A stretch of 64,000 nucleotides of DNA from Verrucomicrobiales bacterium. Lineage in GTDB: Bacteria; Verrucomicrobiota; Verrucomicrobiia; Limisphaerales; UBA11358. Made by a program: the position numbers and the translations under genes. The notes under the pieces are model-generated. The model ran no database searches. It was given only the letters and a program-made list of their open reading frames with translations, and was not told the DNA's origin. Location of the stretch: positions 248,001-312,000 of the forward strand of contig JAQTQB010000002.1 in NCBI GenBank assembly GCA_028712475.1, read 5' to 3'. Positions 37,167-57,133 of the stretch are shown here, one piece after another (the stretch's first letter is position 1; each line of letters starts with the position of its first letter).

Positions 37167-38027
37167 TCATTTTCTGGTGGCGTGAGCCTGCAGCCACTCG
37201 GCGTCCTCGTTGCCATTCGGCGTGTCAATGTTGATTGTAATCGTGCCAGGCTTCGGGTTCTCCAGCACAACAGCGGTTTTCCACTTGTGCAGTTCAGAAT
37301 GGCCGTCGACAAATGAAAGTCCGCCCGAACCCCCATGATAACTTGCCGGCCTATTCACTATGTGAGTCGCCTTATTGGGATAACCATCCATTTCCACCAC
37401 AAAAAAACCGTCATCAATGCTGTCTTCGCGTTCGTCAAGAAAAACAAAGGTGCCAGAAGGGCCTGGACTGACGAAGTCTGAAGATTTGCGATATTGACGC
37501 CAAGGACCGCCGGTGTCCCACGGAGACATGTTTGGGTCTGGGGCGCCGGTGAGGGGGGTGCCGCGAGCGCCCACCCAGTTCAGCATGGACATGGAGCGCA
37601 CACGCGGGCGAGTTTTGAATGAGGCGTCGGCAGCAACGCTTCGATCACCCGGACATTTGTAGAGGCCGAGATTCTTTCCGCAATAAGGCCAAAGGAGACT
37701 GGACATGATGTTGTTTCCCCCGGCCGAAGGCGTTACCGCCGGATCTGTGTTTTCTGGGGTAAATCGCATATCTCCACCCACCCATTCATAAGGCCCGCCT
37801 TTGGAGTTTGGCAGGCGATCCTCATTGTCATCCACATACATTTTCCAAGCCAGCAACAATTGGCGATGGTTGTTCATGCACTGAATTCCTTGGGCTTTCA
37901 ATTTGGCCTTGGATAGCGCCGGTAAAAGCATGGCTGCGAGAATGGCGATGATGGCGATCACCACCAGCAGTTCAATCAGCGTGAACGCGGCCTGCGACGT
38001 TGCCCGGATTTTTTTTGAAACGTTCAT
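37167..38027 (-). CDS. H-X9-DG type pseudopilin (prepilin N-terminal domain)
   Basis: A 286-aa type II-secretion/type IV-pilin-like protein. A basic leader is followed by the prepilin peptidase site and hydrophobic helix [20 protein letters not shown] (residues 15-34), cut before Phe15 with Glu at +5. The C-terminal globular region carries [21 protein letters not shown] and the [11 protein letters not shown] block named for its His-X9-Asp-Gly spacing. Such proteins occur in dozens of copies in Verrucomicrobiota, Planctomycetota and Lentisphaerota. They are thought to be surface or pseudopilus components; individual functions are unknown. The next paralog starts 12 nt upstream of it, so the two are probably co-transcribed. 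Confidence 0.85.
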
Positions 38028-38038
38028 CTTTGAGGCTC

Positions 38039-38878
38039 TTAAGGTGCGCTGGTGCGCTCACAGAGCCACGGTAAATCATCGGACTTTGGATCCCTTGCAG
38101 GATTACCGGAGGGGACTGCCTTCAAGTTCAGAATGACTGTGTCTTTCCATTTTTTGATTTCTGAATGACCGTCGGCAAATGAAAGTCCGCCCGCGCCGTT
38201 GTGGTAAGTTGCCGGAATATCTACCCAATTGTCAGGCATGCTGGGATCAACAACCATGAACCCATCGTTGATGCTGAATGGGTTTTCATCCATATACACC
38301 CAGCACTTGGAGGGTGCTGGCCGGACGATGTCCGACTGCTTACGGAAGACGCGATTCGGGGGAAAGCTGTTCCACGGCTGGTGCGGATTCATCGCACAAC
38401 TGGTGGACATGCTGCGGATGGTGTCCACTCGCTTGAAATTTGCATCTGTAAAAAGGCTTTTGTCCGCCGGGCACTTGTAAATCTTGAGTGTTTTGACGTA
38501 AGGGAAAATTAATCCCAACTGTATAAGCTGGGGGTCGGCCGATGTCTGCACGTTTCCATAAACCCAGTTATTTTCCGGCCGACCGGGATCGGTCCAAGGC
38601 GGACTATGCGAGTCTGGGATGGCAGTGACCATGGCTTCAGTCCCCGCAGTCATTACAATCTTGTCATCGTTATCGCCTGAATATAAAACCCAGCCAAGCT
38701 GCAATTGCTTGAGATTGTTCATGCAACTGATGCCTTGTGCCTTGGCCTTGGCCTTGGACAACGCCGGCAAAAGCATGGCGGCAAGGATGGCGATGATGGC
38801 GATCACCACCAGCAGTTCAATCAGGGTGAAACCTGATCGGCCTTGTCGAACTGCCTTGATTGTCTTGAGTTGATTCAT
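38039..38878 (-). CDS. H-X9-DG type pseudopilin, paralog
   Basis: A 279-aa paralog of the adjacent downstream gene. It has the same leader and helix ([20 protein letters not shown] from about residue 17), then [36 protein letters not shown] and [11 protein letters not shown], ending [11 protein letters not shown] use the ATG at 38876-38878 rather than the one 33 nt upstream because it places a normal-length leader before the cleavage site. It is followed after 11 nt by the next pseudopilin. Probably exported through the pilin pathway; function unknown. Confidence 0.83.
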
Positions 38879-38958
38879 CTGGTCTCCTGTTTGTTTGGGA
38901 GCCGCCGGCAAACAGCCGGCGGCTCCACATATTCAATTTCTACTGTTATGCAGACCTA

Positions 38959-41964: not shown

Positions 41965-42065
41965 AGGTGTTAATGGTTGAACTGCACTGGGGGAACATGG
42001 TTTGATGACTGTCGCGAATTTTAACTGTTAATTACTGGCTTTTCCGGCACTTTCCACATTGCGCG

Positions 42066-42078
42066 TTGACGCACTAAC
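42066..42078. promoter_or_regulatory. operator-like site, promoter-proximal copy for the 1001-aa protein
   Basis: TTGACGCACTAAC about 100 nt upstream of the ATG. On the minus strand the site follows a weak TTGCGC-N16-TATGTT promoter, whose -10 merges into the TTAGTGCGTCAA site. Confidence 0.5.
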
Positions 42079-42129
42079 ATAATTTTCCAAATCAAGCGCG
42101 CAAGGATGCCTTGGTTGTGTGTTTGTGTG

Positions 42130-42168
42130 TTGACGCACTAACTAAACATGGAGGACGGAATTTGTCAA
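42130..42168 (-). promoter_or_regulatory. promoter with overlapping operator-like site
   Basis: Minus-strand TTGACAAATTCCG begins at 42168 and the site GTTAGTGCGTCAA occupies 42130-42142, with the predicted -10 (TTTAGT, 42141-42146) overlapping it. The 38-nt layout is nearly the same as at 43138-43176. Confidence 0.6.
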
Positions 42169-42237: not shown

Positions 42238-43095
42238 TCACCACCAAAATCCCGGCGACCCGCCTTGCGTCCGTGGAAGCATTTTTTCCCACTTGCGCCA
42301 CTCGCCGTGACCATCAAGCATGACCACATTGCCGCCCGCCGGAAAACTGCCGCTCATGTGTGACGTCTCATGCAGATCATCGGGGTTGCCGGTGACCAAA
42401 TTCCAGCCGCCCGCAATCTTTGTAAATTTGTAGGTGTTGCGCTGGGCGTTGTCGTTCTGGCCTCCGGCGGAAACCGTTGCATCGGCGACCAGCACTTTCT
42501 CGGTGGATGACACGGCGGGGGCGGTCTGACGCTTGAAGTTATTGTCAACGATTGACAGCGGCACTGGAATTATGGACGGATTCCAGTTGGACCAGGTCAG
42601 CGAGTAGGTGCTGGCAAATGCAAGCGACGGGGCAAAAGTTTGCGCATAGCCAATCACGCGATAACCGCTGTTGGCAAATCCGTTCGCGTCTCCCCACAGC
42701 ACATCATTGTTCTGCCTGGGGTTTCCGGGGCAATACATGACGTTCCGCGTCGCACCGTTCTGGAGCATGATATCCACCGCAGGAACCGGCATGTCCCACA
42801 CCCAGTTGCCAAAGGCCATTTGTGGCAGCTTGTCTTTTGAATCCACGGCGTAAACCTGGATGGCCAGCCCGAACTGCCGGAGGTTGCTCAAGCATTGGAT
42901 GCGTTTGGCCTTGTCCTTGGCTTTCGACAGCGCTGGCAGCAGCATCGCCGCGAGAATGGCGATGATGGCAATCACAACCAGCAACTCGATCAATGTGAAT
43001 CCACGACGGCAGCAGCGACCAACTTGTGGCATTGGTCTTGGGCGCAGAACCGGCACGGCGACACAGGCGAATTTGGATTGCAGCAGGGATTTCAT
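42238..43095 (-). CDS. H-X9-DG type pseudopilin under the GntR-type operator
   Basis: A 285-aa protein with a long basic leader and the prepilin helix [20 protein letters not shown] beginning at about residue 33. The body has [16 protein letters not shown] and a final [15 protein letters not shown] block with the H/DG motif. An internal ATG (residue 22) would give a more usual leader length. It lies between the 1001-aa secreted protein and the GntR regulator, and its own promoter (TTGACA-N16-GATACT) overlaps an operator-like site. It is probably a surface component made together with the secreted protein. Confidence 0.83.
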
Positions 43096-43137
43096 GACAT
43101 ATGGGCAAAAAAACGCAATTTAACGTTAGTTTGCGCG

Positions 43138-43176
43138 TTGACGCACCAAGTATCCACAGAAGTCGGAATTTGTCAA
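43138..43176 (-). promoter_or_regulatory. promoter with overlapping operator-like site
   Basis: Minus-strand TTGACA (43171-43176), 16-nt spacer, GATACT (43149-43154), with CTTGGTGCGTCAA (43138-43150) overlapping the -10. It lies 43 nt upstream of the pseudopilin ATG. Repressor binding here would block RNA polymerase. Confidence 0.65.
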
Positions 43177-43194: not shown

Positions 43195-43941
43195 TTACCG
43201 GACGGCTTTCGCAGCGAAGCGATACATGTCGCCACGATAGATGGAATCTTCCATCTCAATGATCAAATCCTTGCTGCAAAATGAAACGCCCTCGACCCGG
43301 AACGCAGGCACGGGCTTGTCCAGATTGAAATGCTTCAGTTGCCCGCCGTCCAGCAGCACCGCGCTGACCATCTGGTTGATCTCGGTCAGGTGAATTCCGT
43401 AATTCTTCGCAAAAATGTCATACAGCGATTGCTCAAGGTTCTTGCGATGTATGTCCGGGCAAAGCCCCATCGAAATATAGCGCGTCTCCTTCATCACCGG
43501 CACGCCGTCGGCATAGCGGATGCGCTCGATTTCGCAATACGGGGCTTTCAGTGTGAACTCGCGGCCATTGACGGTCTGCTTGTGATCCGAATTATGCAGG
43601 TGAAACCCGATCAACTTTGTCGCCGGCTTGCGACCGGCCTCGAGCATGTTTTTTGTGAAACCAAAAATCCGGTTGATGGCGCGCACCACCGTCTGGTCAC
43701 GGACAAAAGTGCCCTTGCCCTTGACCCGCGTGACCCAGCCCTCATTTTCCAATTCGTGCAGCGCCTTGCGCGCGGTCGTGTTGCTGACCTGATATTTCTC
43801 GATGATCTCGTTCTCCGAAGGCACCGGCGAACCGGGGGCCAGCGTGCCAAGCTGAATCATGCCGATGATCTTGCGGCTGATCTGGAAGTATTTTGGCGGG
43901 CTGTGTTTTTCAGTGTTCACGCTGTTTCCTCGCACCGCCAT
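43195..43941 (-). CDS. GntR/HutC-family transcriptional regulator (UTRA)
   Basis: A 248-aa regulator. The N-terminal winged HTH (about residues 15-80) has PSENEIIEKYQVSNTTARKALHELENEGWV (in part) followed by KGKGTFV. The remaining part is a UTRA ligand-binding domain (ERIRYADGVPVMKETRYI, near 150; then AFRVEGVSFCSKDLIIEMEDSIYRG, in part). UTRA regulators sense small metabolites such as sugar phosphates. I start at the ATG at 43939-43941. Five copies of a TTGACGCACTAA-like motif upstream of nearby secreted-protein and GDPD genes are its most economical target; this is inference. No such site is seen before its own gene. Confidence 0.85.
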   Translation of the reverse strand: MAVRGNSVNTEKHSPPKYFQISRKIIGMIQLGTLAPGSPVPSENEIIEKYQVSNTTARKALHELENEGWVTRVKGKGTFVRDQTVVRAINRIFGFTKNMLEAGRKPATKLIGFHLHNSDHKQTVNGREFTLKAPYCEIERIRYADGVPVMKETRYISMGLCPDIHRKNLEQSLYDIFAKNYGIHLTEINQMVSAVLLDGGQLKHFNLDKPVPAFRVEGVSFCSKDLIIEMEDSIYRGDMYRFAAKAVR

Positions 43942-44001
43942 TAAGGGAATCTCCGCAGGTTTTGTCAAGCAGCGAGCGGCACTCAATCGTTTTTCTGGCA
44001 A

Positions 44002-44042
44002 CAAAAACCGGGCGCAACCCTGCCGGAGCCAGGTTGCGCCCG
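44002..44042 (-). terminator. rho-independent terminator of the malectin lipoprotein gene
   Basis: CGGGCGCAACC (44009-44019) pairs with GGTTGCGCCCG (44032-44042), an 11-bp perfect stem with a 12-nt loop. On the minus strand it is followed by GTTTTTG. It lies 22 nt after the stop of the lipoprotein gene. Confidence 0.8.
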
Positions 44043-44063
44043 ATAAAAAAACGGCCTTCCTTT

Positions 44064-44768
44064 TTACGGCGCGGGAATGATCTCTATGCCGTTGATTTCG
44101 GGATTGTCCACACCGCTCTCAAACGTGATGTCGAGCTTGCCGTCGGCGATGGTCACGGGGACCGTTTCGATGTAAGCGCGACGCGGGCCGCCCGCCTTCA
44201 CCCACACGTCAAAATCCTTGAACTCCTGCCCTTCGACGTTGAAGGAAAAGACGCGCCCTTCCGGGCCGGAGATGCCGTCATACGTTTCGGCAAAATGAAG
44301 TTTCACCACATATTTGCCGTTGGGCAGCGGCTGGGAAAAGGAACTCATGCCCCAATGCTCGGAGCGATAGATCCCGGCATCCGTCGTGTTCTCGATCTTC
44401 ATGTCGTCTTCGCGGACGGAAACATCTCCACCCTCAAAGCCGGTGTCCGCAAGCCAGACGTTGCCGTTCGAATCGGTGAAGCTGGCGTCAGCGCCGGCAT
44501 CAATGCGGATTGCTGAACTCGCCGGCGCAGCTTCCGCAGGTTTCACCTCAACTGGTGACGCAGCAGGTGCAACCGGCGCGGTCGGAGCGGCAGGTGCAGG
44601 CTCGACAGCGGGCGCAGGCGCTGGTGTGACGGCTGCGGGCGCGACAGCCGCAGCTTGCTTCTCGCCGCCCTTCTCTTCCGCTGACTCGCAGCCGGCCAAA
44701 AGGACGGCGGCCAGCATTGAAATGAAAAGGCAGCCCGTTGAATTAAGGAGGAAGTTTTTTTTGCTCAT
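44064..44768 (-). CDS. malectin-domain lipoprotein
   Basis: A 234-aa lipoprotein with lipobox LAGC (Cys27), a 50-residue Ala/Pro-rich linker, and a C-terminal malectin-type carbohydrate-binding domain from about residue 87 (IRIDAGADASFTDSNGNVWL, in part; then YRSEHWGMSSFSQPLPNGKY, in part; LHFAETYDG; PEINGIEIIPAP). The domain is almost the same in protein and DNA as the C-terminal module of the GH127-like enzyme at 52730-55153. It is therefore a recent copy of that module, displayed on its own at the outer or inner membrane. It may hold substrate near the enzymes. A clear terminator follows. Confidence 0.83.
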   Translation of the reverse strand: MSKKNFLLNSTGCLFISMLAAVLLAGCESAEEKGGEKQAAAVAPAAVTPAPAPAVEPAPAAPTAPVAPAASPVEVKPAEAAPASSAIRIDAGADASFTDSNGNVWLADTGFEGGDVSVREDDMKIENTTDAGIYRSEHWGMSSFSQPLPNGKYVVKLHFAETYDGISGPEGRVFSFNVEGQEFKDFDVWVKAGGPRRAYIETVPVTIADGKLDITFESGVDNPEINGIEIIPAP

Positions 44769-44890
44769 ATGTTTGTTTTGGTTTGCGGTTCAAGTTTCAG
44801 ACTGACGGATTTAATGGAAATCGTCAATTTTTTCGTTGCTGAATTTTGATCGTGGGCTCATGCCTGATTTTGCTGGTCATGGTTTCGCCC

Positions 44891-45763
44891 TCACTTCGAG
44901 GGCGGGATCCGCAGCCTGGCCGCCACGGGAAAATGATCGCTGGGGAACTGGCCGTCGCGCGCGAGCGTGGATATCTCGGCGCGCTCCACCGTCACTTCGC
45001 CGCGCGTGAGAATCCAGTCAATGCGCGGGCCATTTGGCTTGGCGGCTTTGAAATCGTTGAACGTGCCCACCCCCTCACCGCGTCGCTCGGGCGCAGCGAG
45101 CCACGCGTCCGTGAAAAAATTCTCGGCGGTTAAAATTTTGTATGCCCTGTTCGATTCGGCGGCGGAGTTGAAGTCGCCAATCAGCAGCACGGGGAGTTTC
45201 GTGTCAAGTGCAGCGACGCGTTTGCGGACAAGTTTCGCGCTCTTCTCGCGCGCCGCCTGAACTTGGTGATCGAAGTGAGTGTTGAACAAAAAGAATTCAC
45301 CGCCCGTCTCGCGGTCGCGGAATTTTACCCACGTCACCATTCGCCGGCAGGTGTTGCCCCAAGTCGTTGAATTCATCACGTCCGGCGTGTCGGAGAGCCA
45401 GAAGTGATCGAAGGCGAGCGGTTCGAGACGTGCCTTGCGATAGAACACCGCCATGAACTCGCCACGGCTCCCGCCTTCACGACCAAGGCCAATCCAGTCA
45501 TACTCCGGCAGGTCAGCGGCGATGTCCTTGATCTGGGAATAAATCCCTTCCTGCGTGCCCATCACGTCCGGCGCGAGGTTCTGGATAAGTTCGCGCATGA
45601 GCGGACGGCGCTGCGGCCAGGCATTGGGCGGATTCGTGCTGGCGAAGCGCAAATTGTAAGTCATCACGGTGAGCGCAGCGGGCGACGCATTGGTCGGAAG
45701 GTCGGTGCGGCTCGTCAATGCAAGGGGCAGCGACACAATGACAAAAAGGAGCAACTTTTTCAT
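44891..45763 (-). CDS. exported endonuclease/exonuclease/phosphatase-family protein
   Basis: A 290-aa EEP-fold enzyme with a signal peptide (LLLFVIVSLPLALTSRTDL). Characteristic motifs are VMTYNLRF with the Asn, GTQEGI with the metal-binding Glu, LFNTHFDH, LLIGDFNSAAES with Asp/Asn, RIDWILTR, and SDHFPV at the C-terminus. Secreted EEP proteins of this type occur in polysaccharide-use clusters and may act on phosphodiesters. I start at the ATG at 45761-45763. It begins 8 nt after the ABC permease stop and so ends the long pentose-uptake operon. Confidence 0.85.
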   Translation of the reverse strand: MKKLLLFVIVSLPLALTSRTDLPTNASPAALTVMTYNLRFASTNPPNAWPQRRPLMRELIQNLAPDVMGTQEGIYSQIKDIAADLPEYDWIGLGREGGSRGEFMAVFYRKARLEPLAFDHFWLSDTPDVMNSTTWGNTCRRMVTWVKFRDRETGGEFFLFNTHFDHQVQAAREKSAKLVRKRVAALDTKLPVLLIGDFNSAAESNRAYKILTAENFFTDAWLAAPERRGEGVGTFNDFKAAKPNGPRIDWILTRGEVTVERAEISTLARDGQFPSDHFPVAARLRIPPSK

Positions 45764-45771
45764 AGTGGGAT

Positions 45772-46776
45772 TCACGGAGTCGATTTTGACGAAGGGGGGC
45801 GCGAAAACAATTGTTTCAACAGCATGAATTTTTTGCCGGTCAGGTGATGCCGCCATGCGTCGAGAATCACCGCCCCCACAATCACCACCCCGGTGATGAC
45901 GCGCTTGGTCGGCTCGGACGCGCCGACTTGCGCCAGCCCCGCCTCCAGCGTGGCGATGATGAGCACGCCGAAAAAAGTGTTCACCACGGAACCGCGTCCG
46001 CCCATGAGGCTCGTGCCGCCGATGACCACGGCCGCGATGGCCGAGAGTTCCAAGCCCACGCCCGCGTTCGGATCGGACGAGCCGAGCCGCGAGGTGTAAA
46101 AAACCCCGCCCAGCCCGGTCAGCAGCCCCAGCAGCGCGAAGACCGCAATCTTGACCGGCTTGGGATTGATGCCCGCCAGGCGCACGGCCTGTTCGTTCGT
46201 GCCAATTGCGATGAGATAGCGGCCGAACACCGTGCGCGACAGGACCACCTGTCCGGCCACGACCACCAGCACGGCGATGAGGAACGCCGGCGAAACCGCC
46301 AGCCCGGCGACCGGCGTTGACAGGCCTTCCACCGCGCCGCCGATGTATTTGGTCTGCGAGTTGGTGGTGAGATAGGCGAGACCGCGCGCGATCTCCAGCA
46401 TCCCCAGCGAAACGATGAACGATGGAATGCCGAAGCCCACGCTGACCAGGCCGTTCAACGTGCCGGCACCGAGACCGACGCCGAGGCCGAGAAGGATGGC
46501 CGCCCAGAACGGCAGGTGAAAATTAACAAGCGCCAGCCCCACCACCGCCCCGCAGAGGCCGAGCACCGAACCAACCGAAAGGTCAATCCCGCCGATGATG
46601 AGCACCAAGGTCATGCCCGCCGCGACCACGGTGAGCGCCGGAATGCGGTTGGCCAGCGTGACAAAGGTGCGCTCGCTTAGAAAATTGTGGCTCATCAGGC
46701 CGAACAACAGCACCAGCCCAAGCCAGATCACCAGCATGGCCATATATTCAACCAGTTTTTTGGCTTTAAGATTCAT
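45772..46776 (-). CDS. rbsC: ribose-type ABC transporter permease
   Basis: A 334-aa inner-membrane permease of the BPD_transp_2/RbsC family with about nine to ten hydrophobic helices. Signature stretches are VAAGMTLVLIIGGIDLSVGS near residues 60-80, GIPSFIVSLGMLEIARGLAY, and the ATPase-coupling loop with AIGTNEQAVRLAGI near 195-208. Start at the ATG at 46774-46776, overlapping the ATPase gene by 4 nt (ATGA). It imports a pentose or similar sugar together with the flanking ATPase and binding protein; the neighbouring ribokinase and arabinofuranosidase-like genes point to a pentose. Confidence 0.9.
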   Translation of the reverse strand: MNLKAKKLVEYMAMLVIWLGLVLLFGLMSHNFLSERTFVTLANRIPALTVVAAGMTLVLIIGGIDLSVGSVLGLCGAVVGLALVNFHLPFWAAILLGLGVGLGAGTLNGLVSVGFGIPSFIVSLGMLEIARGLAYLTTNSQTKYIGGAVEGLSTPVAGLAVSPAFLIAVLVVVAGQVVLSRTVFGRYLIAIGTNEQAVRLAGINPKPVKIAVFALLGLLTGLGGVFYTSRLGSSDPNAGVGLELSAIAAVVIGGTSLMGGRGSVVNTFFGVLIIATLEAGLAQVGASEPTKRVITGVVIVGAVILDAWRHHLTGKKFMLLKQLFSRPPSSKSTP

Positions 46777-48389
46777 GTGGCAATGGCGCTTTCTTTCTGG
46801 TCGAGATAACCGCTGAAAGCGGCCTGGGTGATTTTTTCCTGCGTCCACTCGTCGGGCGTGAACTCGGCGGTGATGCGTCCTTGCGACATCACGAGGAGAC
46901 GGTCGCACAGCGCCATCAGTTCAACCAGTTCGCTTGAGACGACCATGACCGCCTTTCCTTCCGCCGCCAGGTCGTGCAACAACTGGTAGATGGTGTGCTT
47001 CGCGGCGACATCAATTCCGCGCGTCGGCTCATCGAACAGCAGGATGCGGCAATCCCGCGCGAGCCAGCGGGCGATGACCACCTTCTGCTGGTTGCCGCCG
47101 CTCAACTCGCCGATGGTTTGTTCGTGTGACGTGCATTGCACCTGCAACCGGCCGCAAAAAGATTCGGTGGTTTTCGTTTCCGCACGGGTGTCCAGCCAGC
47201 CGCCGGCGTTGGCGTGCCGGGCAATGGTGCTCAACGTGGTGTTGACCCGGATGGGTTGTGGCAGCAGCAGGCCATCCTGTTTGCGGTCTTCGGGCACGAG
47301 ACCGATGCCGGCGCGCAGCGCGTCGGCCGGGCTGCGGATGACCACCGGCTGCTCGCCGACGAGAATCTCCCCGCCGTCTTTTGCATCCGCGCCGAAGATC
47401 GCGCGCAAGGTTTCGGTGCGGCCGGAACCAATCAGGCCTGCGATGCCCAGAATTTCACCACGTCGTAATTCAAAACTGACGTCGCGCACCTGGTCGCCCG
47501 CCCGCAGGTTGCGCACGCGCAAAGCGACTTCCCCGACGGGCCGTTCGACCACGCTCTTCTTCCGCTCCGGCAAATCATGCCCGACCATCTCGCGGACCAG
47601 TTCCGCAGGCGTCACGTCGCCGGCCTGATGAGTGGCAACGACGCGGCCATCGCGCATCACGGTGATGCGGTCGGCAATGCGGCGGATTTCATCCATCCGG
47701 TGGCTGACGTAAATGATCCCCACGCCCTCCTTTTGGAGCTGGCGGATGTTTTCAAACAACTGCTCGATCTCGGGGTCGGTCAGCGCCGCCGTCGGTTCAT
47801 CCAGAATGAGCAGCCGGCAATTCTGCGACAATGCGCCGGCAATCTCAACCAGCTGCTGCTGACCCACGCCCAGAAATCCCGCCGGGGTGGACGGATCAAC
47901 GCCGCCGAGACCCACGCGAGAGAGAGCCTGGCGGGCCTCATTGTGCAGGCCGACGAAGCGGAGAAAGCCACCGCGTCGCGGCAGCCGGTTGAGAAAAATA
48001 TTTTCCGCGATGCTCATGGTTCCAATCACATTGAGTTCCTGCAGCACCATGATGACGCCCGCGTGTTCGGCCTCACGCTTGGAACCCGGGTTGTAGGGAC
48101 GGCCTTCAAGCTGGATGTCTCCGCCATCCCGGTCGGTCAGCCCGGAAAGGATGCGCGCGAAAGTGGATTTGCCCGCGCCGTTGCTGCCCACCAACGCATG
48201 AACTTCGCCGCGCTCCAAGGCGAAGCTGAAGTCCACCAACACGGGGACGTTGTAGCTTTTCTGAAGCCGGGTGACTTGCAGGAGCGGTCCGGACGCCGGG
48301 TTCGGAGTCAGGCCTTCAGGCGGCGTCCCGGACCGCGTAAACGCGGAACTCCGAACTTCGGATTGGTGGAGTGGACCGGCGTTGGCCAT
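46773..48389 (-). CDS. rbsA: ribose-type ABC transporter ATPase (tandem domains)
   Basis: A 538-aa protein with two ABC domains, as usual for sugar CUT2 systems. The first domain has Walker A GSNGAGKST near residue 69 and the LLILDEPTAALTD Walker B region. The second has the signature LSGGNQQKVVIARWL and LLFDEPTRGID. The N-terminal 35 residues differ from family members. Residues about 11-31 are encoded by a 57-nt palindromic repeat element (48300-48356) that lies in frame just after the start codon. The real start might therefore lie downstream of it, though no good ATG is visible. It lies between rbsB and rbsC. Confidence 0.88.
   Translation of the reverse strand: MANAGPLHQSEVRSSAFTRSGTPPEGLTPNPASGPLLQVTRLQKSYNVPVLVDFSFALERGEVHALVGSNGAGKSTFARILSGLTDRDGGDIQLEGRPYNPGSKREAEHAGVIMVLQELNVIGTMSIAENIFLNRLPRRGGFLRFVGLHNEARQALSRVGLGGVDPSTPAGFLGVGQQQLVEIAGALSQNCRLLILDEPTAALTDPEIEQLFENIRQLQKEGVGIIYVSHRMDEIRRIADRITVMRDGRVVATHQAGDVTPAELVREMVGHDLPERKKSVVERPVGEVALRVRNLRAGDQVRDVSFELRRGEILGIAGLIGSGRTETLRAIFGADAKDGGEILVGEQPVVIRSPADALRAGIGLVPEDRKQDGLLLPQPIRVNTTLSTIARHANAGGWLDTRAETKTTESFCGRLQVQCTSHEQTIGELSGGNQQKVVIARWLARDCRILLFDEPTRGIDVAAKHTIYQLLHDLAAEGKAVMVVSSELVELMALCDRLLVMSQGRITAEFTPDEWTQEKITQAAFSGYLDQKESAIAT
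48300..48356. repeat. 57-nt palindromic repeat inside the rbsA 5' end
   Basis: Ends GTTCGGAGT and ACTCCGAAC form a perfect 9-bp inverted repeat, with an internal hairpin CCGCG-taaa-CGCGG and a smaller one GCC-ttca-GGC. Its length of 57 nt is exactly 19 codons, so it is read through in frame. The layout is the same as for other REP-like elements in the window. Confidence 0.6.
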
Positions 48390-48398
48390 GACAGGAAA

Positions 48399-49382
48399 TT
48401 ACTTGGTTACGACATCCACCGCCGTGGTCTGGTCTGCGGGCGGAGCTTCGCCCTTCAAGATTTTCAGCGCCGCCTCGATGCCGAACACCGCGAGCCGGTC
48501 GCCGTGCTGGTCCGCCGTCGCCACCACCTGTCCCTTGTCCAGCAACGGCCGCAGCGCGCTGATGTTGTCGAAGCCCACGACGAGCACCTTTCCGGTCTTG
48601 TCCGCCGCCTGAATGGCGGACACCGCGCCGAGGGCCATGTTGTCGTTCGCACACAGGATGGCCTTCAGGTCCGCATGTTCGTTGAGCATCGCACTGGCGA
48701 CGTTGTTGGCCTTTTCCATTTCCCACCGGCCGCTCTGGACGCTCACGATGTTCACTCCCGCAGCCTTCATGGCGTCCTCAAATCCCAGCCGGCGCTGCTG
48801 GCCGTTGAAGGCGGTCGGGATGCCCTCGATGATGGCCACCTTGTCGCCCGCTTGAAGTTGTTTCGCGAGCGCCTCGCCCACCTTGCGCGCGCCGGCCCGG
48901 TTGTCCGGCCCGACGAAAGGCACGGTGATGCCCGCTTGCTTCAGCACATCGGCATCGAGCTTGTTGTCAATGTTCACCACGAGGATGCCCGCTTCCTTGG
49001 CGTGCTTGAGCACCGTCACCAGCGCTTTCGAGTCCGCCGGCGCGATGACGATGGCGTTGACCTGCTGCGCAATCATCTGCTCCACGAGATTCACCTGCTC
49101 GGCGAGGTCGGTCTCATTCTTGATGCCGTTGACGACGAGGTCGTAACTGGCGGCGTTGGCGGCCTGATGCTGCTTTGCGCCTTCCGCCATCGTGCTGAAG
49201 AATTCATTCGCCAGCGACTTCATGACAAGCGCGACCTTTGGCTTGGCGGGCGCGGATTTGTTGTCGGCCGTGTTTTGGGATTTATTGCAGCCGCCGTTCA
49301 ACACGGCGAGCGAACCGAGGGACAAGGCGAGCGCCAGTCCCGCGACAGAGTTTGAGAACAGAGTTTTTTTCATAGGATTCAT
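48399..49382 (-). CDS. rbsB: ribose-type ABC transporter substrate-binding lipoprotein
   Basis: A 327-aa periplasmic binding protein of the peripla_BP_4/RbsB family. It has a lipoprotein-like signal ending GGC (Cys32 in VLNGGCNKS). Domain motifs are VALVMKSLANEFFSTMAEGA (in part) near 50-65, ADSKALVTVLKHAKEAGI, VPFVGPDNRAGARKVGEALA and ILCANDNMALGAVSAI. It is the first transporter gene, followed by rbsA after 9 nt. The ligand may be ribose, arabinose or another pentose; family assignment cannot settle this. Confidence 0.9.
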   Translation of the reverse strand: MNPMKKTLFSNSVAGLALALSLGSLAVLNGGCNKSQNTADNKSAPAKPKVALVMKSLANEFFSTMAEGAKQHQAANAASYDLVVNGIKNETDLAEQVNLVEQMIAQQVNAIVIAPADSKALVTVLKHAKEAGILVVNIDNKLDADVLKQAGITVPFVGPDNRAGARKVGEALAKQLQAGDKVAIIEGIPTAFNGQQRRLGFEDAMKAAGVNIVSVQSGRWEMEKANNVASAMLNEHADLKAILCANDNMALGAVSAIQAADKTGKVLVVGFDNISALRPLLDKGQVVATADQHGDRLAVFGIEAALKILKGEAPPADQTTAVDVVTK

Positions 49383-49400
49383 GGACAGGTTTATACAGGT

Positions 49401-50390
49401 TTATTTTTGGCGACGCAATTCCGCCCCGGCCCGGACTTTTCGCGTGGCGAGCATGGCTAGAATTTCTTTGCGTGCCGGAGCGGAGGGCTGCGCGCCAAAG
49501 CGGGTCACAGAAATGGCCGCCGCCGCGCTGGCAAACCGCGCGGCCTCCAGCAGTGCCCTGCCCTCGGCCAGCGCAACGACAAGCGCGCCGTTGAAAACGT
49601 CGCCTGCTCCCGTGGCGTCCACGGCGCTCACTTTGAATCCGGGGATCAACTGCCGCACGTCTTTCCCGGACACGAACGCGCCGCGCGAACCCATCGTGAT
49701 AATCACGTTTTGCACGCCGCGCGCCAGCAGCTTGTCGGCGGCTTTGGCCGCCGCAGCTTCGTTGGTCACCGCCACACCCGTAAGCAGTTCGGCTTCGCTC
49801 TGGTTGGGCGTCAGCAGGTAAATGCGCTTGAGCAATTGGGCCGGGAGTGGCCGGGCGGGCGCAGGATTCAAAACCACCCGCACGCCGGCAGCGGCGGCAA
49901 GAGCGACGGACGCTGCGACCGTCTTCAGCGGCGTTTCCAATTGGAGAAGGATGACACGGGCGCGGCGCAGCACACCTTTCGCCTTGCGAACATCGGCGCG
50001 GCTTAATTTGTCATTCGCGCCCGAAGCCACCGCGATGCTGTTCTCGCCATTCTTGCCGACGAAAATAAGGGCCACGCCGGACGGAGTTTTCGCGTCGCGA
50101 ATCACATGACTAACATTGATTCCGTCGGCCGCAAAACCGGCCAACGCCTGTTCACCGTTTGCGTCACGGCCAACGCGGGCGATGAACGTGACGGCTCCGC
50201 CCGCCCGTGCGGCGGCGACGGCTTGATTTGCACCTTTGCCGCCGGCGGCGCGGACAAATTCGCCGCCCAGAATTGTTTCACCGGGTTTGGGGATGCGCGC
50301 CGCCTTGATGATCAGGTCGGTGTTCGAACTGCCGATCACGAGCACCGGCGGCTTGATCGGGCGCACGGGTTGTTGTTTCCCCATTTTCAT
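49401..50390 (-). CDS. rbsK: ribokinase
   Basis: A 329-aa PfkB-family sugar kinase. The first family motif AAGGKGANQAVAAARAGG near residues 53-70 and the ATP/anion-hole motif VDATGAGDVFNGALVVALAEG (in part) near 270-290 are both intact; the latter includes the catalytic Asp in GAGD. The start at 50388-50390 overlaps the upstream GH127-like gene by 4 nt. It phosphorylates the imported pentose (ribose or a near relative) at O-5 in the cytosol. It lies directly between the hydrolase genes and the transporter. Confidence 0.92.
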   Translation of the reverse strand: MKMGKQQPVRPIKPPVLVIGSSNTDLIIKAARIPKPGETILGGEFVRAAGGKGANQAVAAARAGGAVTFIARVGRDANGEQALAGFAADGINVSHVIRDAKTPSGVALIFVGKNGENSIAVASGANDKLSRADVRKAKGVLRRARVILLQLETPLKTVAASVALAAAAGVRVVLNPAPARPLPAQLLKRIYLLTPNQSEAELLTGVAVTNEAAAAKAADKLLARGVQNVIITMGSRGAFVSGKDVRQLIPGFKVSAVDATGAGDVFNGALVVALAEGRALLEAARFASAAAAISVTRFGAQPSAPARKEILAMLATRKVRAGAELRRQK

Positions 50391-52723
50391 GGATCGAACG
50401 CCTGCAGTTCCGCGCAGGACGAAAAGTTTTGACTTGGACTGTCGCCGCACGCAGGCACGCCGAGGACGCGCACGGCGAGAGCTTGAACCGGACTTGCCAG
50501 TTGAAGCGTGAATGCCTGGCCGGGTTTCAGGTTCGCGTTGTCGGTCGCGGTCGTTGCGGGGTAATCCGCCAGCTCGCCAATGGTTTCCCACGCGCCGCCT
50601 TGCTCGCGCTGGATTTGCACCTGGGGCTTGCCCGCGCTGGTGTCAAACCAGCCGCCGTCGCGGGAAGTTTTTCCGTGACGGAAAACCACGCGACTGATCG
50701 CGGTGGGCGCGTCGAGCGTCACAGCGAACCAGTCTTCCTTCTCCAGACTGGAGTTGAAGGTCACCATCGCGTTTTTGAGATCGTCGTCATTGATTTCCCC
50801 GGTCGGGTGAAGTTGACGGGACACGCTGTCCATTCCGAGCAGCAACACGTTTCCTGTCAGTGGTGCGGGCAACGGAAGCCAGACTTTATAACGGGAGCCT
50901 GTGCCGCCCGCATCGGCGAAGGATATGAGGCGAATGGTCACGGGCGAACCATCTTTGCGGCTCACGGCGTTGATGCGAAAGACCTGTGCGCCCGGCCACG
51001 TCTTCACGCCTGCCGGCGCGGGTTCCGGCGTGAGCGCCAGCGCGGCGACATCCGGCTTGGCGATGGCAAAGGTGAAGATTGTCTGCCCCTCGGCCCGGAG
51101 CAGCGCATCATCCGCTGCGAGGACGAGAGGCCCGTAGAGGATCGCGACTTTGCCCTCATTGAGATGATCGCCGACGATCAGCCGGGCTTCCTGTTTCAAG
51201 CTCAACTCGATCTTGTCGCCGGGTTTCCATTTGCGCTTGATCTTCACGTAGCCGTCAGGGCCGGGTTTGATCTCAACCTTCTGGCCGTTGACCTCAACGG
51301 ACGCGTTGCGACACCATGACGGGATTCGTAACTTGATCGCAAAAGATTTTTTCTTCGCCGGCGACACGGTGATCCTGATCTGATCCTCGCCGGGATACAG
51401 CGTGTCGGTGTTAATCTCAACCGGCATGCCGTTGCGCAGCGCGAGTTTGGCCTGGCCGGATTCGTAGAGATTGACCACCACGCCATCCGCATCCGTGGTG
51501 ACGGCAAACGTGGGTATCAGCGCAAGCCCGCGCGGCCCGCTGGACGCACAGCAATCGCCGATCTCGTCGCGCTTGCCGTAAGGTTTCTTGCCTTCCATCT
51601 GCGCGTAGTTGCACCAGCCGGAGCCATCGCAGAGCTGCGCGCCGAGCAACTGGTTGAGAATGACCCGTTCAAGCTCGTCGGCAAACCGCGCCTCGCCTGT
51701 CAGCCGCAGCAATTGCGCGTTGAATTGAATCCAAGTCACCGTGACACAGTTTTCACCAATGTTGTTGACGTTGGGCAGATCGAAGTCGCCGTGGAAACGT
51801 TCCCGATAACTCATCGCGCCGGTGAGGTATTCCCGCTTGTCCACGATGTCCTGCCACGCATTCAAACAAGCCTCGAGAACTTTCTTGTCGCCCGTGGTGC
51901 GGTAGTATTCCAAGGCTCCATTCAGGCAGGAGAGCATTTCATAGGCTTTGCCATTGCCGACCTTGTTCACGCCCTTGCCGTCCAGCAGACGGGAAACGAT
52001 GTGGGGACCGTTCGGCTGTTCCCACGCGCGGAGAATGTATTTGCAGAAATCAAGATAACGCGGGTCGCCCGTCAACCGGTAGAGCAGCATCATCGGCTCC
52101 AGCACGCTGGTCGGGGCCATGCCGATGTGTTCACCGGCCTTGATGATGTCGCGTTTGCCCGGCTCGTCGCCAAAAGTTTCGCAGAGAATATCTCCCATGC
52201 GTGTGCAGGTGGGCAGCAGATTCGTGTTGCCGGTGTAGCGCACATAGGCGACCAGACCGAGCAGGTTGTATTTGTGCGACCACACGTCCCATGAAGTCCA
52301 GCGGTTCGTGGCCAGATAGGTGCCGAGATAGCCGTCCGCCTCTTGGCTCTTGGCCAGTTCCGTTGCCACATAATCCAGCTTCGCGCGCAAGACCGGATCG
52401 CCGCTGTTGACCCATTCCAGCGTGGCCGCGTGCAGCCATTTGCCCACATGCTCGCCATCCCATTCTTGCCGGCCCGGACGTTTGCTGTAGCCTTCCAACA
52501 GGCGCGCGGGATCAATCCTGACCAGCCGGTTCGTGATGCTGGCGGCGGAGCGCATTCCTTCCCACCCGGTCTGATGCACCCGGTCAGGAATCTGGGAATC
52601 CTGCCGGTCCTTGACCGCGCCGGAGGTTTTTTCCGGCACGGGAGTGATCGGTTCGGCCAAGGCGGTTGCGACCGTGGCTACCAGCATAAGGGAAAGAATT
52701 CTAGTGCTCATCTTCGTGTTCAA
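50387..52723 (-). CDS. GH127 (DUF1680) beta-L-arabinofuranosidase-like enzyme with F5/8C-like tail
   Basis: A 778-aa exported enzyme (signal peptide to about residue 24). The helical barrel carries family landmarks such as WDGEHVGKWLHAA. The residues matching the Zn(Cys)3Glu site of the known GH127 enzyme are kept: Glu324 and Cys326 in GENCVTV, and Cys391-Cys392 in GDCCASSGPRG. A beta-sandwich follows. The last 150 residues resemble a discoidin (F5/8 type C) domain (EDWFAVTLDAPTAISRVVF, near 670). It is a tandem paralog of the upstream gene, with which it shares an identical 172-bp stretch, and leads the operon with rbsK and the transporter. Substrate assumed to be arabinofuranosides. Confidence 0.85.
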   Translation of the reverse strand: MNTKMSTRILSLMLVATVATALAEPITPVPEKTSGAVKDRQDSQIPDRVHQTGWEGMRSAASITNRLVRIDPARLLEGYSKRPGRQEWDGEHVGKWLHAATLEWVNSGDPVLRAKLDYVATELAKSQEADGYLGTYLATNRWTSWDVWSHKYNLLGLVAYVRYTGNTNLLPTCTRMGDILCETFGDEPGKRDIIKAGEHIGMAPTSVLEPMMLLYRLTGDPRYLDFCKYILRAWEQPNGPHIVSRLLDGKGVNKVGNGKAYEMLSCLNGALEYYRTTGDKKVLEACLNAWQDIVDKREYLTGAMSYRERFHGDFDLPNVNNIGENCVTVTWIQFNAQLLRLTGEARFADELERVILNQLLGAQLCDGSGWCNYAQMEGKKPYGKRDEIGDCCASSGPRGLALIPTFAVTTDADGVVVNLYESGQAKLALRNGMPVEINTDTLYPGEDQIRITVSPAKKKSFAIKLRIPSWCRNASVEVNGQKVEIKPGPDGYVKIKRKWKPGDKIELSLKQEARLIVGDHLNEGKVAILYGPLVLAADDALLRAEGQTIFTFAIAKPDVAALALTPEPAPAGVKTWPGAQVFRINAVSRKDGSPVTIRLISFADAGGTGSRYKVWLPLPAPLTGNVLLLGMDSVSRQLHPTGEINDDDLKNAMVTFNSSLEKEDWFAVTLDAPTAISRVVFRHGKTSRDGGWFDTSAGKPQVQIQREQGGAWETIGELADYPATTATDNANLKPGQAFTLQLASPVQALAVRVLGVPACGDSPSQNFSSCAELQAFDP
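50901..51072. repeat. 172-bp tract identical to 53294-53465
   Basis: Within the two tandem GH127-like genes this stretch is base-for-base the same at an offset of 2393 bp, while flanking DNA differs in scattered positions. That pattern suggests recent gene conversion or duplication. Confidence 0.65.
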
Positions 52724-52729
52724 GGTTCA

Positions 52730-55153
52730 TCATGGCGCCGGAATGATCTCGATGCCGTTGATTTCGGGATTATCCACGCCGCTCACGAACGTGATGTCGA
52801 GCTTGCCGTCGGCGATGGTCACAGGAACCGTTTCGATGTAAGCGCGCTGACCGCCGCCTGCCTTCACCCACACATCAAAATCCTTGAACTCCTGCCCTTC
52901 GACATTAAAAGAAAAGACGCGCCCTTCCGGACCGGTGACCCCGTCCCAAGTTTCGGCAAAATGAAGTTTCACCACATACTTGCCATTGGGCAGCGGCTGG
53001 GAAAAGGAACTCATGCCCCAATGCTCGGTGCGATAGATGCCGGCATCCGTCGTGTTCGCAATCTTCATGTCGTCTTCGCGGACGGAATTTTCGCCGCCGT
53101 CAAAGCCGCGATCGGACAGCCAGATGTTTCCGGCAGCATCCGTGAAATCGGTTGCCGAGCCGGCATCAATGCGTATCACCGAACCCACCGGGGTCACGGT
53201 CGCCGGCTGAACAGATGCAGCGGGCACCTTGGTTGCCGCCGGAACCGGTGCCACATAGCCAGGCAGCGGCAGCCAGACTTGATAATTGGTGCCGGTGCCG
53301 CCCGCATCGGCGAAGGATATGAGGCGAATGGTCACGGGCGAACCATCTTTGCGGCTCACGGCGTTGATGCGAAAGACCTGTGCGCCCGGCCACGTCTTCA
53401 CGCCTGCCGGCGCGGGTTCCGGCGTGAGCGCCAGCGCGGCGACATCCGGCTTGGCGATGGCAAAGGAGGTGAGCGTCTGCCCGTCGGCCTGGAGCAAGTC
53501 AGCGTCAGCCGCCAGAACCAGCGGGCCGTAGAGGATCGCAACCCGGTCCTGATTTTTGTGATTGCCGACTATCAGCCGGGCTTCCTGTTTCAAGCTCAAC
53601 TCGATCTTGTCGCCGGGTTTCCATGTGCGCTTGATCTTCGCATAGCCGTCAGGGCCGGGTTTGATCTCAACCTTCTGGCCGTTGACCTCAACGGTCGCGT
53701 TGCGACACCATGACGGGATTCGTAACTTGATCGCAAAAGATTTTTTCTTCGCCGGCGACACGGTGATCCTGATCTGATCCTCGCCGGGATACAGCGTGTC
53801 GGTGTCAAGTTGAACTGCGGTGCCGTTGCGCAGCGCGAGTTTGGCCTGCCCGGATTCGTAGAGATTGACCACCACGCCATCCGCATCCGTGGTGACGGCA
53901 AACGTGGGTATCAGCGCAAGCCCGCGCGGCCCGCTGGACAGGCAGCAGGTGAACCCGACGCCAGCGACGCCCTTCTCGTCGCCCTTATAATAGGGTTTTT
54001 TGCCTTCCATTTGGACATAGTAGCCCCAGCCGGAGCCATCGCAGGTCTGGGCACCGAGCAGTTGGTTGAGAATGACCCGCTCAAGCTCGTCGGCAAACCG
54101 CGCCTCGCCTGTCAACCGCAGCAACTGCGCGTTGAACTGAAGCCAGGTAACAGTGACGCAGGTTTCGCCGACGTTGTTGACATTGGGCAGATCAAAGTTG
54201 TCGTGGAAATGTTCCCGATAACTCATCGCGCCGGTGAGATAAATCCGATTGTCCACGATGTCCTGCCACGCATTCAAACAAGCCTCGAGAACTTTCTTGT
54301 CGCCCGTGGTGCGGTAGTATTCCAAGGCTCCGTTCAGACACGAGAGCATTTCATAGGCTTTGCCATTGCCGACCTTGTCAACGCGTTTGGCGGTCAGCAA
54401 AGTGGAGACGATGTGCGGGCCATACTGGGTGTGCGGACCCTTCGGCTGTTCCCATGCGCGGAGAATGTATTTGCAGAAATCAAGATAACGCGGGTCGCCC
54501 GTCAGCCGGTAGAGCAGCATCATCGGCTCCAGCACGCTGGTCGGGGCCATGCCGATATGTTCACCGGCCTTGATGATGTCGCGTTTGCCCGGCTCGTCGC
54601 CAAAGGTTTCGCAGAGGATGTCTCCCATGCGTGTGCAGGTGGGCAGCAGATTCGTGTTGCCGGTGTAGCGCACATAAGTGACCAGGCCAATCAAATCATA
54701 TTTATGCACCCACACGTCCCATGAGGTCCAGCGGTTCGTGGCCAGATAGGTGCCAAGATAACCGTCGTCCGTCTGGCACTTGGCCAGTTCCGCCGCCACA
54801 TAATCCAGCTTTTCGCGCAAGACCGGATCGCCGCTGTTGACCCATTCCAGCGTGGCCGCGTGCAGCCATTTGCCCACATGCTCGCCATCCCAGGCCTGCC
54901 GGCCCGGACGATGGCGGAAGCCATCAAGCAAACTATCCAAATTCACCTTCTCCAGCCGGTTCGTGATGCTGGCGGCGGAGCGCATTCCTTCCCACCCGGT
55001 CTGATGCACCCGGTCAGGAATCTGGGAATCCTGCCGGTCCTTGACCGCGCCGGAAATTTTTTCCGGCACGGGGGCGATTGGTTGGGCAAGGGCTGTCGCG
55101 ACGGCGGCGACCATGAAAAAAGAAAGAATTTTAACGTTCATATTCGTGTTCAC
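52730..55153 (-). CDS. GH127 (DUF1680) enzyme with C-terminal malectin domain
   Basis: An 807-aa exported enzyme, paralogous over its first 650 residues to the downstream gene and sharing the Cys/Glu metal residues (GETCVTV and FTCCLSSGPRG). The C-terminus is different. A short Ala/Thr/Pro linker (PVPAATKVPAASVQ) leads to a malectin domain of about 145 residues (YRTEHWGMSSFSQPL, then FNVEGQEFKDFDVWV), closely matching the lipoprotein at 44064. It starts the long operon with the second GH127-like gene 6 nt downstream. It probably releases L-arabinose from polymers at the surface. Confidence 0.85.
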   Translation of the reverse strand: MNTNMNVKILSFFMVAAVATALAQPIAPVPEKISGAVKDRQDSQIPDRVHQTGWEGMRSAASITNRLEKVNLDSLLDGFRHRPGRQAWDGEHVGKWLHAATLEWVNSGDPVLREKLDYVAAELAKCQTDDGYLGTYLATNRWTSWDVWVHKYDLIGLVTYVRYTGNTNLLPTCTRMGDILCETFGDEPGKRDIIKAGEHIGMAPTSVLEPMMLLYRLTGDPRYLDFCKYILRAWEQPKGPHTQYGPHIVSTLLTAKRVDKVGNGKAYEMLSCLNGALEYYRTTGDKKVLEACLNAWQDIVDNRIYLTGAMSYREHFHDNFDLPNVNNVGETCVTVTWLQFNAQLLRLTGEARFADELERVILNQLLGAQTCDGSGWGYYVQMEGKKPYYKGDEKGVAGVGFTCCLSSGPRGLALIPTFAVTTDADGVVVNLYESGQAKLALRNGTAVQLDTDTLYPGEDQIRITVSPAKKKSFAIKLRIPSWCRNATVEVNGQKVEIKPGPDGYAKIKRTWKPGDKIELSLKQEARLIVGNHKNQDRVAILYGPLVLAADADLLQADGQTLTSFAIAKPDVAALALTPEPAPAGVKTWPGAQVFRINAVSRKDGSPVTIRLISFADAGGTGTNYQVWLPLPGYVAPVPAATKVPAASVQPATVTPVGSVIRIDAGSATDFTDAAGNIWLSDRGFDGGENSVREDDMKIANTTDAGIYRTEHWGMSSFSQPLPNGKYVVKLHFAETWDGVTGPEGRVFSFNVEGQEFKDFDVWVKAGGGQRAYIETVPVTIADGKLDITFVSGVDNPEINGIEIIPAP
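53294..53465. repeat. 172-bp tract identical to 50901-51072
   Basis: Second copy of the identical stretch in the upstream tandem paralog. Confidence 0.65.
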
Positions 55154-55294: not shown

Positions 55295-57133
55295 TCAGTA
55301 ACTCAACCCGAAGCCGTATGGAAATTGTGCGTCCACCTTGGCGCGGTCGTTACCTAGCTGCGGGAGCTGCTCGTTCGTGCGCGGCCAGGTGCGCGGGAGT
55401 TTGCCTGTGGGTTTTTGGTCGCCAAACAAAACGTCGGTGAGGCCGCGGCCTTCCGTGCCGGGCAGCCACGCGGCGACAAACGCATCGCTCGATTCCAGCG
55501 CCGCGCCCAAGACCAGCGGGCGTCCTGAATAAAGCACGGTGATGACGGGCGCACCGGTTTGTCTGGCTTTGTTGACCAGATCGAGATCGGCGGGGGCAAG
55601 GGTCAAATCTTTCTTGTCGCCCTTCGTCTCGGCGTAAGGCTTTTCAGCAACCACGACAATCACCGCGTCAGCGTCTTTCAGTCCGCTGCCATCGGCGGAG
55701 AAAGTTATTTTTGTCTCCGCGGAAACGGTCTGGCGAATCGCGGCGAGAAGAGTCGTTCCACCCTTGATGACGTTGCCGCTCTTGCCCTGCCAGTCAATCG
55801 TCCAGCCGCCGCATTGCAGTCCCAAATCATCAGCAGCCTGGCCGACGACAACGAGATGCTTGATTTTCTTCGAGAGCGGCAAAGCCTTGCGGTCATTCTT
55901 CAGCAGCACCAATGACTCACGCACGCATTCGCGCGCGACCTGCCGATGCTCCGCCGAACCCACCGACGCGAGCAGCGCGGGGTCGGCGGAATCTTGATCG
56001 AACAAGCCCATCTGGAATTTCACGCGCAAAATCCGGCGCACAGCGTCGTCAATCCGCGCCTGTGGCACCTTGCCCTCCGCGACCAGTTGCTTGAGATAGG
56101 TGATGAATGTGATGTAGTTGTTCTTCTCCCACGAGTTTGTCTGCATCGGGCCGTAGGGAACCATGGCCATGTCGAGACCGGCGTTGATGGAGGAAGCGAT
56201 ATCATTCCTGTAATTTCCGGAACGCTGGTCAATCGCGTCCCAGTCCGAGACGAGAAATCCTTTGAAGCCGAGTTCGCCCTTCAACACGTCGGTGAGCAGG
56301 TATTTATTGTGATGCATTCTCTTGCCGTTCCAACTGTTGAACGAAACCATGATGGAGCCGACGCCCGCCTTTATGGCTGCGACATAAGGCGACAAGTAAA
56401 GCCGTCGCAGTGTGGCTTCGTCGCACACGGTGTTGCCTTCGTTCTTGCCGTCCTGCGTTCCGCCGTCGCCGACAAAATGTTTTGCGCAGGCCAGCACCAA
56501 GGAGGAGCTGGAAAGTTGTTTGCCCTGCCACCCGCGCACGGCAGCCGCGCCCAGCCTGGAAACAAGTTCCGGCGATTCGCCATAGCTTTCGTAAGTGCGC
56601 CCCCAACGCGCATCCTGCGCCACGGCGATGCAAGGAGCGAAAGCCCATTGCACGCCAATCGCCCGCGTTTCGAGCGCGGCGATGTGCGCGGCGCGTTCGA
56701 CGAGCTTGGCGTCGCGCGTGGCACCGAGGCCGATGTTGTGCGGGAAGATCACCGCGCCATCCACGTTGTTGTTCCCGTGAACCGCATCAATTCCGTAGAG
56801 CAGCGGAATCTTCAACCGCGTCTGCGACGCATACGATTTGAATTCATCCACCGCGCCTCTCCAGGCTGCCGGGGAATTGTCCGCCGGATCCGAGTCGCCG
56901 CCGCTCAACACCGAACCGAGGGCGTATTTTTGCACGTCGGCCTTGTCGTGCAGCGCGTTCATGTCAACCTGGGTCATCTGCCCGATTTTTTCGTCGAGCG
57001 TCATTTGTGCCAGCAACGCCTCGGCGCGCTGGTCGGGAGTCGGCGCGGCCTGGACAAGCGGATTGAACGTGACGAGCAGCGCGGCAAGCGCGATGTGATT
57101 TTTTAAGACAATGTTAAGGAAGCGTGTTTTCAT
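55295..57133 (-). CDS. secreted GH3 beta-glucosidase / beta-xylosidase
   Basis: A 612-aa family 3 glycoside hydrolase with a signal peptide ending at about residue 30 (NPLVQAA). Landmarks are LLYGIDAVHGNNNV near 111-124, ACAKHFVGDGG with Lys218-His219, the nucleophile Asp297 in GFLVSDWDAID, and the second-domain SLVLLKNDRKALPL. The C-terminal TWPRTNEQLP and YGFGLSY are typical of a two-domain GH3. Most such enzymes cut beta-glucosides and some cut xylosides or arabinosides. It overlaps the GDPD-LamG gene by 4 nt (ATGA) and is probably transcribed with it. Confidence 0.9.
   Translation of the reverse strand: MKTRFLNIVLKNHIALAALLVTFNPLVQAAPTPDQRAEALLAQMTLDEKIGQMTQVDMNALHDKADVQKYALGSVLSGGDSDPADNSPAAWRGAVDEFKSYASQTRLKIPLLYGIDAVHGNNNVDGAVIFPHNIGLGATRDAKLVERAAHIAALETRAIGVQWAFAPCIAVAQDARWGRTYESYGESPELVSRLGAAAVRGWQGKQLSSSSLVLACAKHFVGDGGTQDGKNEGNTVCDEATLRRLYLSPYVAAIKAGVGSIMVSFNSWNGKRMHHNKYLLTDVLKGELGFKGFLVSDWDAIDQRSGNYRNDIASSINAGLDMAMVPYGPMQTNSWEKNNYITFITYLKQLVAEGKVPQARIDDAVRRILRVKFQMGLFDQDSADPALLASVGSAEHRQVARECVRESLVLLKNDRKALPLSKKIKHLVVVGQAADDLGLQCGGWTIDWQGKSGNVIKGGTTLLAAIRQTVSAETKITFSADGSGLKDADAVIVVVAEKPYAETKGDKKDLTLAPADLDLVNKARQTGAPVITVLYSGRPLVLGAALESSDAFVAAWLPGTEGRGLTDVLFGDQKPTGKLPRTWPRTNEQLPQLGNDRAKVDAQFPYGFGLSY

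Follow-up and report, generated by a model that had tools for sequence, protein, structure and literature searches.

We identified a gene for a free-standing malectin lipoprotein (copy A, 44064..44768; 234 aa from an ATG start, delineated by ORF and Pfam PF11721) in a 64,000-nucleotide stretch of a Verrucomicrobiales contig, JAQTQB010000002.1 (hereafter the window; the features of the gene cluster between 43195 and 57133 are all on its minus strand), and the malectin module of this protein is shared with the C-terminus of a GH127 enzyme (GH127m, copy B, 52730..55153; 807 aa, ORF and Pfam). The account that we favour, with moderate confidence, is that a module of the lipoprotein lineage was captured by one copy of a duplicated GH127 gene, that later gene conversion acted on the two modules, and that, as a working model, both would bind sugar of one kind for their operon. 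The direction proposed in an initial sequence-only reading of this DNA, in which the lipoprotein was copied from an enzyme module, probably has to be reversed.

Copy A is a real feature and an ordinary member of the broad malectin family. Its description as a malectin lipoprotein was borne out: residues 86-228 match Malectin PF11721 with 98.3 bits (cut-off 23; Pfam), and a signal peptide with a lipobox (44688..44768), which reads LLAGC-ES and contains Cys27, was recognized by a simple sequence pattern and by eye. The protein is expected to be exported and acylated at Cys27, and is probably membrane-anchored; its acylation, its location and its ligand are all points that we infer. The Ala/Pro-rich linker of copy A (44511..44687) has no demonstrable homology to the linker of GH127m, the score of their comparison being equalled in 729 of 2000 codon shuffles.

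The claim that the module is shared with the GH127 gene 8 kb away also stood. In GH127m, residues 659-801 match Malectin with 88.7 bits (cut-off 23; Pfam), the module occupying 52733..53176 (Pfam, blastn), and blastn aligned the two genes without gaps at 394 of 458 identical nucleotides, up to the last sense codon. Across the gap-free 444-nt modules, the identity is 86% at the nucleotide level and 85% at the amino acid level, and it reaches 91% in one 300-nt stretch inside the alignment. Because 27 of the 148 common codons differ silently and 20 by a residue change (101 are identical), the modules are not very recent copies. The pair is special among the malectin matches of its own genome (97.95% complete), of which there are three, the third being 31% identical to copy A.

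Outside this genome, the closest module is a fragment from SJ485, which belongs to another family of the same order (locus L039, positions 7420-8348, JADLHS010000046.1). In this fragment, a GH127m-like malectin tail runs up against an antisense, truncated DUF2959 gene, with brief similarity where the two meet. Because of this junction, the fragment may be either what is left of a second gene of the GH127-malectin type or a product of assembly; as a clean orthologue it was rejected on the same ground. The linker of GH127m (53177..53254, VAPVPAATK...) resembles that of the fragment, with a score equalled in 3 of 2000 codon shuffles, compared with 96 of 2000 for the linker of copy A against that of the fragment.

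The identity between copies A and B is uneven along the module. The first 89 nt (44422..44510) contain 28 differences (68% identity) and the last 355 nt (44067..44421), a candidate gene-conversion tract, contain 32 (91%), so that the description of the two as nearly the same at the DNA level holds for the last 355 nt and fails for the first 89. The differences are clustered (0 of 5000 permutations), and identity at third codon positions rises from 0.61 over the first 36 codons to 0.795 over the rest (Fisher p 0.045). In codon trees (28 modules from 26 chosen loci, also used for the AU tests), the partner of GH127m was the SJ485 fragment for the first segment (97/80) and copy A for the second (93/86). 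By identity, the first segment of copy A best matches a free-standing module of a congener (L007, 74%) and that of GH127m the SJ485 fragment (79%); in the best tree of this segment (90 columns, bootstrap unsettled), copy A, GH127m and the fragment do not form a clade, and another module, L015, falls inside the trio. Because of the uneven identity and the segment-specific best trees, later gene conversion between copies A and B is suggested, which would have homogenized the last ~355 nt. A single divergence without conversion, in which the first 89 nt vary more under weaker constraint, is conceivable, if doubtful: the third-position contrast has a p of 0.045, a run test restricted to sites that are informative relative to the SJ485 fragment gave 614 of 10000 (0.061), and 12 of the 20 amino acid differences sit within the first 36 residues. 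However, the third-position contrast between the segments is absent from the comparisons of either copy with the fragment (copy A, 0.64 vs 0.60; GH127m, 0.64 vs 0.64), which speaks against such a relaxation. AU tests on the whole module and on each segment rejected no alternative pairing (p 0.15-0.47).

Gene conversion is evident elsewhere in the cluster. GH127m is followed by a tandem paralogue, GH127f (50387..52723; 778 aa, ORF and Pfam), which lacks malectin and ends in an F5/8-type-C-like tail (21.8 bits, below the Pfam cut-off of 28.2). Together, the pair (50387-55153) forms a mosaic of identical blocks and diverged stretches, with a swap of tails after ...VWLPLP. The longest run without a difference covers 86 polymorphic sites, a length reached in 0 of 5000 permutations (control pair, 954 of 2000), a strong sign that these two genes underwent gene conversion.

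Malectin lipoproteins of this kind are not confined to the window. Module matches were found in 28 of 59 genomes (its own included), many in open frames of ~210-280 aa, and the enzyme-tail query, at E 1e-20, had matches in 65 of the 320 genomes searched within the order, not all of them free-standing. Among 73 distinct modules, obtained from 105 domain hits after leaving out those with <130 profile positions and merging identical copies, 37 are free-standing by a length rule (copy A and the SJ485 fragment included); a permissive lipobox pattern fits 29 of these 37, probably by coincidence in a few cases. As far as gene length and pattern can tell, both the genus and the order repeatedly contain free-standing malectin proteins, many of which carry a lipobox. 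The initial reading had named a pattern that would refute recent copying, namely, a module widespread with equal similarity; the spread was found, the equality was not. In the genome searches and an alignment of 50 modules chosen by us (the two from the window plus 48 from other loci), the similarity to the modules of copy A and GH127m is graded, from 29-40% for the more distant modules of congeners and 51-69% for their closer ones, through 72-74% for L034 of another family and 80-82% for the SJ485 fragment, to 85% between the two copies themselves.

In relatives, the lipoprotein is not tied to the GH127-ribokinase locus. Two genomes (G016 and G002) have GH127 and ribokinase and no module match at E 1e-5, one of them (G016) with a single weak malectin match below the cut-off, and in a third (G030) the malectin lipoprotein and the GH127-ribokinase locus are on different contigs. 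Neighbour clustering yielded no universal genomic partner of the lipoprotein among the 17 loci listed of 23. A Pfam scan of ten neighbour proteins identified an MFS_2 transporter, GH10, GH115 and an alpha-L-fucosidase (GH29) in L041, GH9 in L053 and GH43 in L061, along with neighbours of no evident sugar-enzyme identity, namely an Ig-type protein (L041), a Mal s 1-like protein (L046) and a Rieske-type oxygenase (L034); the lipoprotein relatives sometimes adjoin hemicellulose enzymes (L041, L053, L061) and sometimes do not (L034). A tblastn search placed GH3 relatives at nine loci, with some places listed under two identifiers. In Planctomycetota, three loci (L069, L070, L071) have free-standing malectin genes in a common gene order, with two neighbour families on each side, another lineage-specific setting of the same family.

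The distribution of similarity bears on the possibility that copies A and B were acquired horizontally, separately or together, from a donor outside the genus, neither having been copied from the other here. We regard this as somewhat unlikely. In its favour, the SJ485 fragment, from another family, and L034, from a third family, are closer to the two copies (80-82% and 72-74%) than congeners are (51-69%), and horizontal transfer is kept in consideration because copy A, GH127m and the fragment are distant from the remaining modules, a long branch (0.39 in the 73-module tree) parting the trio from all else. However, the nearest outside match consists of one fragment, both copies lie within one gene cluster, and the best match of copy A in the first segment comes from a congener.

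The tails of related GH127 enzymes bear on the direction of transfer. GH127m is a member of GH127 by its catalytic and middle domains (200.5 and 94.8 bits; Pfam) and aligns with 4qjy at E 1e-44, including the Cys-Cys pair; both GH127m and GH127f have the catalytic domain of the GH127 beta-L-arabinofuranosidases (4qjy, 3wkw), to which, in contrast to these, GH127m adds a C-terminal malectin and GH127f an F5/8-like tail. In a search of 49 genomes of the genus and two others, the five closest GH127 proteins (G016, G030, G002, G072 and SJ485; 63-67% identical) lack malectin; the tail check covered these five, set apart from the many more distant matches in the genus (<40% identity). In four of them, the tail aligns with that of GH127f up to residue 776-777, and the fifth (G030) has no extra tail. 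The Pfam scan for the F5/8-like domain covered the tails of GH127f and SJ485, which both scored below the cut-off, and the tails of G016, G002 and G072 were judged by tblastn alignment to GH127f. Across the 320 genomes of the order, no other malectin-bearing match listed for the enzyme-tail query begins before residue 35 of the query, of which residues 1-49 are the GH127 share, at most nine candidates having been scored in many genomes, and further GH127-malectin genes may exist.

The 73-module tree placed copy A outside the pair of GH127m and the SJ485 fragment, as (copy A,(GH127m,L039)), with a support of 81/90 (not starred, bootstrap unsettled); the codon tree supports the trio at 100/100, and all of its closest neighbours in the 73-module tree are free-standing. 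By our count, a passage from free-standing protein to enzyme takes one state change and one from enzyme to lipoprotein takes two. The simplest reading is that one duplicated GH127 copy gained its malectin tail from the lipoprotein lineage. The proposal of a mobile module is supported, and the proposal that it was copied from an enzyme is not, given that free-standing proteins recur, that the five closest GH127 proteins lack malectin, and that the tree leaves copy A outside the pair of GH127m and the fragment. The formation of the lipoprotein by copying of the GH127m tail behind a lipoprotein leader is unlikely: copies A and B are mutually most similar (85% amino acid, 86% nucleotide identity), their last 355 nt pair with each other (93/86) and a clade of the two is not rejected for the whole module (AU p 0.466), but free-standing malectin is widespread and the closest GH127 proteins are without it, the whole-module tree joins GH127m with the SJ485 fragment, and a path from free-standing to enzyme and back costs one extra change. 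A lipoprotein made from the enzyme tail in one recent copying step was the first possibility weighed, and it ranked below capture by the enzyme on these grounds.

Under the preferred account of capture by the enzyme, copy A would be an established free-standing malectin (CBM57) lipoprotein, with its domain on a flexible Ala/Pro stalk. An ancestral GH127 gene with an F5/8-type-C-like end would have undergone tandem duplication, and GH127m would then have exchanged this tail for a malectin module of the lipoprotein lineage. Afterwards, gene conversion would have kept the last ~355 nt of the malectin copies alike, just as it did the GH127 copies.

The gene neighbourhood suggests a role for the two modules. 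On the same strand, GH127m and GH127f are followed by ribokinase, an ABC importer, a protein of the endonuclease/exonuclease/phosphatase family (EEP; 44891..45856, PF03372), a 122-nt gap and the lipoprotein gene. Ribokinase (49401..50390) matches NF008353 with 365.2 bits (cut-off 341); for its start we chose an in-frame ATG a little ahead of the family match, which begins at residue 83 of the listed ORF starting at 50591. The importer consists of a sugar-binding protein of the ribose/arabinose type (48399..49382; Peripla_BP_4, best names D-allose and ribose, below the cut-off), an ATPase (46773..48389; best AraG, below the cut-off) and a permease (45772..46908; best AraH, below the cut-off, the true start probably lying inside the ORF). 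Upstream of the GH127 pair is a GH3 enzyme (55295..57133; Pfam), and a GDPD-type phosphodiesterase fused to a laminin-G-like domain (57130-58932) overlaps the GH3 gene by 4 nt.

No minus-strand terminator was listed in the gap before the lipoprotein gene, in a scan whose terminator count equals the shuffle count, and we infer that the gene is co-transcribed with those preceding it. After the lipoprotein gene, an RNA fold identified a strong hairpin with arms of 11 nt and a T-run behind it (44009..44042; -32.2 kcal/mol and z -3.6 for 44000-44064), read as a putative intrinsic terminator; it is missing from the consensus terminator scan because its loop is too long (the scan allows loops of 3-8 nt). 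Downstream of the hairpin is a gene for a GntR/UTRA regulator (43195..44004; Pfam). The regulator motif TTGGTGCGTCAACGC is absent before the lipoprotein gene. Sites like TTAGTGCGTCAAC are repeated on the minus strand (42063-42077, 42127-42141, 43135-43149 and 60041-60055), by the GntR gene, by a pseudopilin-like gene and after a GH16 gene; with up to 3 mismatches, 9 occur in the window compared with 4.3 expected, a number reached by 4 of 100 shuffles, and they are a possible, weak candidate for a GntR/UTRA operator. Three genes near the locus with a pseudopilin-type N-terminus (37167-38911 and 42238-43095) have a 141-nt repeat in common.

The malectin of human and Xenopus is an ER protein. The predicted model of copy A (pLDDT 97) has the fold of these proteins (Malectin PF11721, CAZy CBM57), with Z 18.0 and rmsd 2.2 over 148 residues against human malectin (9ikp) and Z 13.6 against Xenopus malectin (2k46). 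An even higher Z of 22 was obtained with residues 717-886 of Bacteroides uniformis beta-glucuronidase (5uj6), in which, as in 6d50 and the NCBIfam beta-glucuronidase/beta-L-arabinofuranosidase family NF049877, the malectin fold is likewise enzyme-borne; a match to NF049877 over its positions 1108-1214 was weak (34 bits, far below the cut-off of 1800). Whereas the malectin folds of those proteins are parts of large enzymes, that of copy A is a separate protein with a presumed lipid anchor, and that of copy B is carried by GH127.

The excerpt of PMC7783096 that we drew on proposes Y67, Y89, Y116, F117 and D186 of Xenopus malectin as disaccharide contacts, and to number these along the 2k46 chain we applied a uniform shift of 23. 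On this placement, Y89, Y116 and D186 correspond to W139, Y163 and D221 of copy A, F117 to D164, and Y67 falls outside the alignment, so that three of the four alignable positions from the excerpt keep an aromatic residue or Asp; at the position of Y116, copy A has Y163 and GH127m a Trp. Unlike human and Xenopus malectin, copy A is a bacterial exported lipoprotein and has Asp in place of F117. It is plausible that copy A binds sugar, and the proposal that it has a sugar-binding role in this locus is supported as plausible.

Our best guess is that copy A is an anchored sugar-retention protein of an arabinofuranoside-digesting operon. The operon would digest arabinofuranosyl oligosaccharides outside the cytoplasm by means of GH127 and GH3, and the anchored and the enzyme-borne malectin would recognize one kind of sugar and keep substrate or product close to the membrane or the enzyme until uptake through the ABC importer and ribokinase. 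Utilization loci of Bacteroidetes contain surface glycan-binding lipoproteins. The arrangement here is similar, in that an anchored binding module lies beside glycoside hydrolases and an importer; however, the importer among the genes from 43195 to 59953 is of the ABC type, and neither SusC nor SusD, the neighbours expected of a SusE/F-type protein, was found among these genes.

To conclude, this work revises which way the domain probably moved, and it documents a GH127-malectin architecture as a modest example of domain exchange with sequence homogenization. Among the literature matches listed, which for GH127 with malectin are plant proteomes by title, none describes this architecture or a malectin lipoprotein family. 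The malectin lipoprotein family is widespread in Verrucomicrobiota and Planctomycetota, with some members beside hemicellulose-degrading enzymes, and its ligand would be easy to test. That the lectin and the enzyme-borne module co-evolve by gene conversion within one operon, their sugar specificity being kept matched, is a rather improbable extension. If true, anchors and enzymes would exchange their binding modules like spare parts.
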